From Elusimicrobiota bacterium (lineage in GTDB: Bacteria; CAYTYR01; UBA6262), in contig PMCA01000035.1 in NCBI GenBank assembly GCA_003153935.1, forward strand, positions 35,029-84,793: 49,765 nt of DNA, written 5' to 3'. The position numbers and the translations under genes were made by a program. The notes under the pieces are model-generated. The model made no database searches and had not been told where the DNA came from. It saw only the letters and a program-made list of their open reading frames with translations. This document shows positions 31,856-39,088 of the stretch, in pieces. Position 1 is the stretch's first letter. Each line of letters starts with the position of its first letter.

Positions 31856-32098
31856 TTACTCGATTATTTCCAAAACAATTCTTTTTTTAGCCTTGGCACC
31901 GGCGGCTCCCAGCAGCAGGCGGATGGCTTTGACTATACGTCCCTGTTTGCCGATGACCTTGCCGATATCATTTTTGGCGACATGCAGCTCCAGTATCACA
32001 GCCTGCTCGCCCTGCACTTCAGTAACTGAAACTTGTCCGGGCTCGTCCACCAGCGTCTGCACTATATAAACGACCAGTTCTTTCAAATTATCGGACAT
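31856..32098 (-). CDS. khpA: KH-domain RNA-binding protein KhpA
   Basis: This 80-residue protein is a single KH domain with KNDIGKVIGKQGRIVKAIR, the GxxG RNA-binding loop. KhpA (YlqC) binds RNA, often with KhpB, and affects cell division and envelope in Firmicutes. Between rpsP and trmD its position is conserved in many bacteria. GGAGGG precedes the ATG. Confidence 0.92.
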   Translation of the reverse strand: MSDNLKELVVYIVQTLVDEPGQVSVTEVQGEQAVILELHVAKNDIGKVIGKQGRIVKAIRLLLGAAGAKAKKRIVLEIIE

Positions 32099-36321: not shown

Positions 36322-36843
36322 TTATATTTCCGCCTTTATTCCCGCCTTAACCCGCTTTTTCAACTTTCTTTTAAGCTTAAGTTTTTTCAAAAATCCGACT
36401 GAATCCACTATCAATTTTCCCATTAAGTGATCCAGCTCGTGCTGCAGTGCCCGCGCCTGGTAACCGGAGTCTTCCCGGATCACCTTCTCGCCCTCCCGGT
36501 TAATTCCCTGTAAGGTTATCCTCTGGGCGCGTTTCATTTTTACGGAAACATTTGGGCAGGACAGGCAACCCTCTTCCAGTTCTTCACTGCCTTCCCAGGC
36601 CAACAGTTCGGGATTGACCAGGACTATCAGCTCGTGTTTGCCTACCACGTCTCCGACATCAACCACGATGATCTGTTTGTTGACGCCGACCTGAGGAGCG
36701 GCCAAACCTACCCCTTTAGCCGTGTACATGGTCTCGATCATATCATTGATGAGATTGATTACTTCCGGGGTGATTAACTTGACCTTATCATTCTTGCGGG
36801 TTAAGCAAGGATTTCCGTATGTTTTTATAGGCAAGACAGCCAT
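36322..36843 (-). CDS. def: Peptide deformylase
   Basis: Def removes formyl from new proteins. The 173-residue protein carries all three motifs: GVGLAAPQVGV near 42, EGCLSCP near 91 and QHELDHLMGKL near 134, the metal ligands Cys and two His. It heads the long operon driven by the promoter at 36914-36942 and has a leader stem-loop. Confidence 0.97.
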   Translation of the reverse strand: MAVLPIKTYGNPCLTRKNDKVKLITPEVINLINDMIETMYTAKGVGLAAPQVGVNKQIIVVDVGDVVGKHELIVLVNPELLAWEGSEELEEGCLSCPNVSVKMKRAQRITLQGINREGEKVIREDSGYQARALQHELDHLMGKLIVDSVGFLKKLKLKRKLKKRVKAGIKAEI

Positions 36844-36877: not shown

Positions 36878-36910
36878 AAGGCAATCCCCGCAATCTCAGG
36901 AATTGCCCTT
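36878..36910 (-). promoter_or_regulatory. Leader stem-loop before def
   Basis: Minus strand AAGGGCAATTCC and GGGGATTGCCTT pair around a nine-base loop with one bulged G. It begins at about the predicted start of the def transcript. The following TTAACGTATTTT is only a weak T-run. Attenuator or 5' stabiliser. Confidence 0.6.
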
Positions 36911-36942: not shown

Positions 36943-36960
36943 TGAAAATAATGCCGGAAA
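36925..36960. promoter_or_regulatory. Inverted repeat around the def -35 box
   Basis: TTTCCGGCAT and ATGCCGGAAA are perfect arms of 10 bases, 16 bases apart, enclosing the TTGACA. The layout fits an operator. The arm also overlaps the T-run of the small-RNA terminator, so it may be a second terminator stem. Confidence 0.55.
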
Positions 36961-36993
36961 AATGAATCGGGTCTACTGTTATCAGTAGACCCG
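36957..36993 (-). terminator. Terminator of the priA-def intergenic RNA
   Basis: Minus strand CGGGTCTACTG and CAGTAGACCCG form an 11-bp stem with loop ATAA, followed by ATTCATTTTT. Strong rho-independent shape. It also would stop transcripts arriving from priA. Confidence 0.8.
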
Positions 36994-37100
36994 GTTCCCT
37001 GGCTAAAAAACCTGGAAAACTTACCCTCTTTCTCCCCAAGTTTAGTCATATCTTTGACGCCGTGGCATTTCTCAATTTCGGCTACGTCTTTCATATGACT
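36957..37100 (-). ncRNA. Candidate structured small RNA between priA and def
   Basis: From the promoter's expected start (37100) the RNA begins with AGTCATAT, which pairs perfectly with ATATGACT (37044-37051). Inside, GAC-GTA-GCCG pairs with CGGC-GTC. Next comes AAACTT/AAGTTT around a purine-rich loop (GGGGAGAAAGAGGG), then the terminator. A possible 68-residue frame crosses it but runs through the terminator, so coding is unlikely. It does not match riboswitches I can recall. Confidence 0.55.
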
Positions 37101-37106
37101 GATAAA

Positions 37107-37135
37107 ATAATAGCAGAGAAAAGAGCCTTTGTCAA
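37107..37135 (-). promoter_or_regulatory. Consensus promoter of the priA-def intergenic RNA
   Basis: Minus-strand TTGACA (37130-37135), 17-base spacer, TATTAT (37107-37112). Starts six bases beyond the priA stop. Confidence 0.8.
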
Positions 37136-37141
37136 GACCAA

Positions 37142-39088
37142 TCACAGCATCTCTTCCGGGTCGACCCGGGTACTGATCTTGACCGCCGCGGTGCGCTTAT
37201 TGGGCATGATTTTCCTGAGCAGTTTGATAAGAGTTTCATGGTTCGCCGACTTTAGTATGATATTCTGGCGGTACTGGCCCCGCAACTTGACCTTAAATGA
37301 CGGCGTCGGCCCGTAAACCTTCAATCCTGGCGCTTTGAACCTGGCCGCCAGCTGCTGGGCCTCTTTCTCCGTTTTATCATTATCCGGCCCTCTCACTTCC
37401 ACCTGCGCCAGGCTGCCAAAGGGAGGATATTTGAGATCTTCCCGTAATTCCAGTTCCTGGGCGTAAAAGCTGTCCCAATCCTGCTTCAGGACGGCCTGCA
37501 GGAGGTAATGCCCCTTATCTTCGGCTTGGATCATTACCGTCGCCGCGCTGCGGCTGGTGTCCAGGCGCTGGATCAGCCTGATGAGATGCTGGAGAGTGCG
37601 CTCGGCCGCGCGGAAATCTGGCAGGTTAAGCATCAGGTCTATCAGCATCACTCCCAGGAAAGTCGCCTGAGGAAAAGCATCATAGTTATTCAGGGCCTGG
37701 GTGCCTACCAGTATGTCATAGTCTTTTAATTCCCTGTTACGGGTAAATGTATCCGCGTCTATTCTTTTTATCCTGGCCTGGGGAAAAATTTCCCTCAGTA
37801 CCGACTCGGCGGTTTCCGTGCCGAAGCCGTAAGACTCCAGGTCGGATTTATGGCACGCCGGGCATTCAGGTAAATGCATATGGCTGTAGCCGCAATAACG
37901 GCAAAACAATTTTTTTCTGTCCTTCGTTTCCGTCAACGGCACATCGCAATCAGGACATTTTACCACCTGCTGGCAGGCCCGGCAGAAGACATAATTACCG
38001 AATCCGCGCATGTTGACAAAGATGATGCCACGTTCTTTCCTGGCCAGACTTGCTGCCAAAGCATCGATAAAATCCTGTTTAAAATACAACGGGGCTTTAT
38101 ACTTGCTCCGGGGCGGAACGGATAAAAGATTTACTTGCACTTTGTTTTGATCGAACAGTTCCCGCCATTTAATTAAAGTATATTCGCCTGCCTGGGCCCG
38201 GTAATATGATTCAACCGTCGGCGCGGAAGTAGCCATGACCAAAGGTACGCAGGACAGCTCCGCCAATTTCCGGGCTACGTCCCGGGCGTGATACATTGGT
38301 TTCTGGTCCGATTTATAGAGCGGGTCCTGCTCCTCTTCCAGAACAACCAGCCCCAGTTTGGGGAAGTTGTAAAACAGCGCCAGTCGGGTGCCTAAAACCA
38401 CCCGGACCCTGCCCTGTTTCAGGTTCTCGCTTATTTCATATTTTTCGCTATCCGATAAACCGCTATGTATTATCGCCACCTGCTCCCGGTAGCGCACGCT
38501 GAAATATTCCTGGTAAGATTCAATCATATCGATCTGCGGGAAAATTATCAACGCCTGCCGGCCGCTGTTTACCAGCTGTTCGATCAATTCCAGGTAGATC
38601 TTTACTCTCTGGCTGGTTAATCCTCCCCAAAGTAATGCCGGCTTCTTTTCTGGTCCTGTACTAACGCCCCGTAATTGCTCTAAGATCCGGCTAGATTCCT
38701 CATCCAGGAGCCCTGGCAGTTCCGACACGCTTTCACTTCTTTCTCTCGCCGGCACCGCTTTGGCCCGCTTGCCGGGTGGACTGATCAGGCAAGACTCCAG
38801 CGCCTCTCCCCAGGAACAAAAGTAATAATCCGCTATCCAGCGGGTGAGACGCAAATGGACCTCATCCACCGCCGGTTCGCCGCTTATGATACCCGATATA
38901 TCCTTGACCTTCTTAAATGCGGATTTTTCCTGCAGCCGGGTGACCACACCCCGCGAAGCTGTTTGGCCAAAGCTGACGGACACCAGCTGGCCCGTACTGA
39001 TCTGGGCGCGCAGCGATTCCGGCACGGCATAATCAAACTCCGTATCAATGGCTATACCCGGAATAACGATCTTGGCGAATTCATTCAT
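37142..39088 (-). CDS. priA: PriA-like primosomal protein with degenerate helicase motifs
   Basis: PriA reloads the replisome at stalled forks. The 648-residue protein keeps the N-terminal 3'-end-binding domain (1-100), the eight zinc Cys (369, 372, 378, 381, 396, 399, 409, 412) and LPDFRAAERTLQ. But Walker A (normally GVTGSGKT) reads GGLTSQRV at 155-162, DEEH reads EEEQ at 251-254, the motif III region reads SAPT, and the Arg-rich motif VI reads RLIQRLDT. ATP hydrolysis is therefore unlikely, as for actinobacterial PriA. It follows the UDG gene by four bases. No frameshift is seen, so it is probably functional as a non-ATPase loader. Confidence 0.9.
   Translation of the reverse strand: MNEFAKIVIPGIAIDTEFDYAVPESLRAQISTGQLVSVSFGQTASRGVVTRLQEKSAFKKVKDISGIISGEPAVDEVHLRLTRWIADYYFCSWGEALESCLISPPGKRAKAVPARERSESVSELPGLLDEESSRILEQLRGVSTGPEKKPALLWGGLTSQRVKIYLELIEQLVNSGRQALIIFPQIDMIESYQEYFSVRYREQVAIIHSGLSDSEKYEISENLKQGRVRVVLGTRLALFYNFPKLGLVVLEEEQDPLYKSDQKPMYHARDVARKLAELSCVPLVMATSAPTVESYYRAQAGEYTLIKWRELFDQNKVQVNLLSVPPRSKYKAPLYFKQDFIDALAASLARKERGIIFVNMRGFGNYVFCRACQQVVKCPDCDVPLTETKDRKKLFCRYCGYSHMHLPECPACHKSDLESYGFGTETAESVLREIFPQARIKRIDADTFTRNRELKDYDILVGTQALNNYDAFPQATFLGVMLIDLMLNLPDFRAAERTLQHLIRLIQRLDTSRSAATVMIQAEDKGHYLLQAVLKQDWDSFYAQELELREDLKYPPFGSLAQVEVRGPDNDKTEKEAQQLAARFKAPGLKVYGPTPSFKVKLRGQYRQNIILKSANHETLIKLLRKIMPNKRTAAVKISTRVDPEEML

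Follow-up and report, generated by a model that had tools for sequence, protein, structure and literature searches.

The region between priA (37142-39088) and def (36322-36843), both on the minus strand of the 49,765-nt stretch of DNA analysed here (the window), raises the question of whether it encodes an RNA that acts on its own or a leader that regulates def. The original prediction, made on the letters of this stretch, favoured an independent small RNA over a def riboswitch. The window belongs to a 1.75-Mb assembly (hereafter G000) of the GTDB phylum UBA6262, which is represented by only five genomes in the collection searched. The RNA was also present in two further genomes of the same family, which belong to another genus: G001 (Elusimicrobia bacterium UBA6262, contig DJVG01000020.1) and G003 (isolate STB_115, JAQTPL010000005.1). 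Comparison of the three copies indicates, with a probability that we put at about 80%, that a structured small RNA of roughly 140 nt is encoded here as a gene of its own, with a predicted promoter and terminator.

Promoter, predicted start site and terminator

The promoter TTGACA-17-TATTAT of the original prediction is present and carries a TG ahead of the -10 element. It lies on the minus strand, which had not been specified before, as does the whole cassette of promoter, RNA and terminator. The -35 hexamer TTGACA (37130-37135) is invariant in all three genomes, and the -10 hexamer TATTAT (37107-37112), TGn-extended and set off by a 17-nt spacer, completes a sigma70-type promoter that scores 11/12. 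Only three places in the 50-kb window reach a score of 11/12 or better when the spacer is 17 nt, compared with 0.35 expected by chance, and the promoter of the RNA is one of them. At the same -10 distance the relatives read TGC-TAATTT and TGC-TAAATT, and all three genomes share the pattern TTGACA-17-TGC-TANNNT, in which the 7th base after the -10 hexamer is the A of AGTCATAT. This geometry of promoter and start is the same in the three genomes despite differing spacer sequences. In the window the 7th base is position 37100, and the predicted start thereby coincides exactly with the beginning of the 8-bp arm AGTCATAT, as had been claimed.

At the other end of the RNA, the expected 11-bp terminator was recovered as an intrinsic terminator hairpin (36964-36997, minus strand) with a core stem at 36993-36968, followed by ATTCATTTTT. 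All 28 of the 28 stem columns are invariant, and the U tract of G003 is weak (ATTCATTTAG). Two features generally looked for in an independent small RNA, namely its own promoter with a predicted start at the RNA 5′ end and its own intrinsic terminator, are both found here. A reading on the plus strand was dropped, as that strand has no promoter and a folding z of only -1.3.

Fold and conservation of the RNA

The predicted non-coding RNA spans about 143 nt on the minus strand (36958-37100), from the predicted start at 37100 to the end of the U run at 36958, and across the three genomes its folding z runs from -5.5 to -7.0. The 144-nt RNA of the window has a minimum free energy (MFE) of -49.7 kcal/mol and a z of -5.5, with none of 200 shuffles folding equally well, in agreement with the structured RNA of 144 bases that had been proposed. 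The 5′ portion forms hairpin A (37044-37100), whose lower helix P1 (8 bp, 37100-37093 paired with 37051-37044) is separated from helix P2 (5 bp, 37088-37084 paired with 37060-37056) by a symmetric 4x4 internal loop, GAAA/AAAG. Above P2 lies an asymmetric loop containing GCCACG (GUA/GCCACGG), and then a variable apical P3, which in the window genome does not align as a kept helix. Hairpin B (37008-37043), a 12-bp helix of AAACTTGGGGAG and TTTTCCAGGTTT with a variable loop, abuts hairpin A without a linker. It is part of the MFE structure in the two relatives; in the window genome it is absent from the MFE structure, and the forced form lies 1.7 kcal/mol above it. The small hairpin that comes next (36998-37007, loop AGCC) shows two C-G to U-G changes in the window genome, both one-sided and both retaining pairing through G-U. 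This hairpin can extend as GGUUUNNU-AGCC-AGGGAACC and then competes with hairpin B. The two are 1.5 kcal/mol apart in the relatives, and in the window the competitor lies about 5 kcal/mol above the structure with hairpin B forced; by thermodynamic folding, the competitor leaves the terminator core stem intact. In the relatives, hairpin A, hairpin B, the small hairpin and the terminator follow one another without a linker. Nowhere is an invariant single-stranded run predicted to reach 7 nt.

The RNA is 85% identical when the window genome is compared with its relatives of the other genus, and 97% identical when the relatives are compared with each other; the comparison covers three sequences, two of which are closely related. 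The neighbours def, fmt, htpX, the PASTA gene and rpe reach 67-74% and 88-91% in the same comparisons, and the spacer between the RNA and def is 89% identical between the relatives. Against round neighbour rates of 0.70 and 0.889, the excess identity of the RNA gives binomial P values of at most 4.5e-5 and 4e-4. Invariant columns are concentrated in the core of hairpin A (40/40), the terminator stem (28/28) and helix B (21/24, each of the three variable positions keeping its pair through G-U), compared with 4/17 in apical P3, 6/13 in the B loop and 2/7 in the terminator loop. Judged from these alignments, the internal-loop core of hairpin A and the terminator stem are under strong purifying selection, while the apical loops drift. 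The stems are therefore kept in two relatives, as had been expected. The covariation that was expected with them did not appear, the changes among the three sequences being one-sided and pair-keeping, with no two-sided compensatory change. With no two-sided change in three sequences, the fold rests on thermodynamics together with wobble-keeping substitutions, and covariation does not yet serve as proof.

Genomic setting and alternative explanations

The gene upstream of the RNA is priA in the window, a 95-aa open reading frame without a Pfam match in G003, and in G001 a 294-aa protein that is possibly an outer-membrane protein (weak, sub-threshold DUF5723 match). The RNA thus follows a different gene in each of the three genomes and has no fixed link to priA. 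As an observation on the neighbouring gene itself, the PriA of the window (37142-39088, minus strand) is missing the GKT of Walker A (LLWGGLTSQRVKIYLE), and LEEEQD replaces the usual DEEH-type motif (near residues 152 and 252); the PriA of G003 is altered likewise. A PriA pseudohelicase has been shown in Deinococcus radiodurans (PMC4504706), and by analogy the window protein looks like one.

Downstream, in contrast to the changing upstream gene, def-fmt follows the RNA on the same strand in all three genomes. This constant linkage leaves some room for a cis-acting leader of the def-fmt operon, a riboswitch or attenuator in which hairpin A would act as sensor and the terminator as switch, with def fed by readthrough. 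Hairpin A indeed resembles aptamers in its compact conserved core and variable apical loops, hairpin B has a competing alternative hairpin, and transcription-attenuating riboswitches, like the RNA, have a terminator after a conserved 5′ domain whose apical loops vary. However, in contrast to such riboswitches, thermodynamic folding of the three genomes gave no antiterminator, that is, no fold that opens the terminator, and the next gene has a separate promoter. The competing hairpin spares the core stem, and the 5′ arm of the terminator is largely free in the relatives until its own 3′ arm is made, while in the window genome it pairs weakly. As originally claimed, def has its own promoter, TTGACA-N17-TATATT at 36942-36914 (minus strand) in the window, with the same motif upstream of def in both relatives, so that a separate def promoter lies downstream of the RNA in 3/3 genomes. 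The distance and content between the RNA and def also vary, with unrelated repeats inserted. The absence of an antiterminator from these folds, together with the independent def promoter, makes a cis-leader role unlikely, and we give it only a small share of the probability. The view of an independent small RNA rather than a def riboswitch is thus upheld, the promoter, RNA and terminator being kept together across two genera with no terminator-opening fold found.

The stretch between the RNA and def has features of its own. A hairpin GGCAAT...ATTGCC (36878-36909 in the window, minus strand) sits at the predicted def transcript start in 3/3 genomes, with an interior that differs in each; in the two relatives a terminator-like T run follows. 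It is possibly a 5′ stabiliser or an attenuator of def. Imperfect inverted repeats of the form GATTACACCGATT...AATCGGTGTAATC lie in the gap that separates the RNA from def in the relatives, and a repeat of this type ends the contig upstream of def in G002, the fourth genome of the family (repeats at L061:4740-4900, L058:3290-3390 and L020:2040-2130).

A different question is how an independent small RNA would act. Antisense pairing in trans with mRNAs, perhaps with a KhpA/KhpB chaperone, is a sub-case of the independent-RNA reading, and the size, promoter and terminator of the RNA suit it. Intrinsic-terminator small RNAs of Hfq-lacking bacteria likewise have their own promoter, a 5′ hairpin, an intrinsic terminator and a single copy. 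A search of the four genomes of the family (91-95% complete) for Hfq, ProQ and CsrA found none of them, so that, as far as can be seen, the RNA depends on neither Hfq nor ProQ; KhpA/B-type KH domains are encoded. One KhpA-type KH domain gene lies at 31865-32083 of the window (minus strand), within the def-fmt-htpX-rpe cluster, and KhpB-like matches occur elsewhere in the genome. However, the most exposed parts of the RNA (the B, P3 and terminator loops) are its variable parts, and it offers no invariant single-stranded run of the length noted above. When six genes of the def cluster were examined, the match of the RNA to their starts did not rise above that of shuffles (complementarity z -0.9 to +1.0). 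In contrast to the small RNAs of Hfq-lacking bacteria, the RNA thus has no exposed conserved seed, and its terminator stem is conserved by letter, beyond what a helix needs. We regard an antisense role as less likely than not.

Translation of the RNA and membership in a housekeeping RNA family are both most improbable. If the transcript were the leaderless or short-leader mRNA of a small protein (ATGAAAGACGTA...), its ATG would lie no more than 7 nt from the predicted start, in a frame that stays open in the window. Between the relatives and the window, however, a 2-nt indel in the apical loop shifts that frame after about four codons, and identity is concentrated on stems and internal loops rather than following codons. 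An indel inside the most plausible frame of a conserved RNA argues that the RNA is non-coding. A divergent housekeeping RNA (6S, a CsrB-like decoy, SRP or tmRNA) would match the single copy, stable fold, own promoter and many hairpins, yet the RNA is without an Rfam match. 6S RNA (RF00013) is similarly single-copy and highly structured with its own promoter, and acts by protein binding, the mode proposed below for the RNA; it was rejected because the RNA has no RF00013 match and neither a 5′-3′ closing stem nor a central bubble. Three of the four family genomes have a separate, above-threshold 6S RNA at another locus (in the window genome at G000:C21:123076-123232). CsrB/RsmZ-type decoys share an independent, hairpin-rich architecture with the RNA. 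They were set aside since CsrA was not found and there are no conserved repeated GGA loops; the single ACGGA loop of two genomes reads GAGA in the window. The 6S and CsrB identities are thus largely refuted, and the exclusion of SRP and tmRNA rests on the empty Rfam scan.

Distribution and a possible mode of action

In Rfam 15, no family matched at the gathering threshold, and relaxed thresholds applied to the window and one relative gave nothing credible, consistent with the earlier remark that the RNA fits no nameable class. A covariance model (R1) searched against 386 genomes returned the three known copies only, and a laxer run on the five genomes of the phylum found the same three without a paralogue. 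No match was obtained in one genome of another family of the phylum (88% complete), nor in two genomes of another phylum, which are uninformative as to absence. A pattern scan of 84,980 genomes, which required 21 exact bases and may therefore miss distant relatives, gave 14 stretches. Two were the RNA, both in this family, and the other 12 were rejected for missing the P1 stem and hairpin B. The same kind of scan on IMG/VR and blastn against phages and plasmids gave no match. G002 showed no copy, which is uninformative because its def contig stops within the repeat 163 nt upstream of def. UBA6262 has been reported from Fennoscandian groundwaters (PMC11484514); a literature search combining the phylum with RNA topics gave nothing on point. 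As far as can be seen, the RNA is restricted to one family of the candidate phylum UBA6262.

Seed-type antisense RNAs usually keep their exposed single-stranded segments conserved. In this RNA the exposed loops are the parts that change, and the paired core and internal loops stay fixed, a pattern that fits recognition of hairpin A, and perhaps of the terminator hairpin, by a protein or ligand. Within the independent-RNA reading, we give such a binding mode somewhat less than an even chance. The RNA would be transcribed from this promoter, starting at 37100, and fold into a series of hairpins with few if any unpaired bases between them. The internal loops GAAA/AAAG and GUA/GCCACGG of hairpin A, together with the terminator hairpin, would then be presented to a protein or ligand, and the RNA would act as a scaffold or decoy rather than through an exposed base-pairing seed. 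More tentatively, it may represent a new UBA6262 RNA family whose invariant 4x4 purine loop and terminator hairpin bind a global regulator or ligand in the manner of 6S or CsrB, with a putative partner in a lineage in which Hfq, ProQ and CsrA were not found.

Taken as a whole, the results support a lineage-restricted orphan small RNA gene whose family is new although its kind is known. As a candidate non-coding RNA gene it is well supported, in a candidate phylum represented here by only five genomes; its core is conserved letter for letter, and Hfq, ProQ, CsrA and 6S do not explain the RNA on present evidence. The RNA would become the founding member of a new family and, with one copy of 140 nt, offers a clean target for finding an RNA-binding partner in these bacteria.
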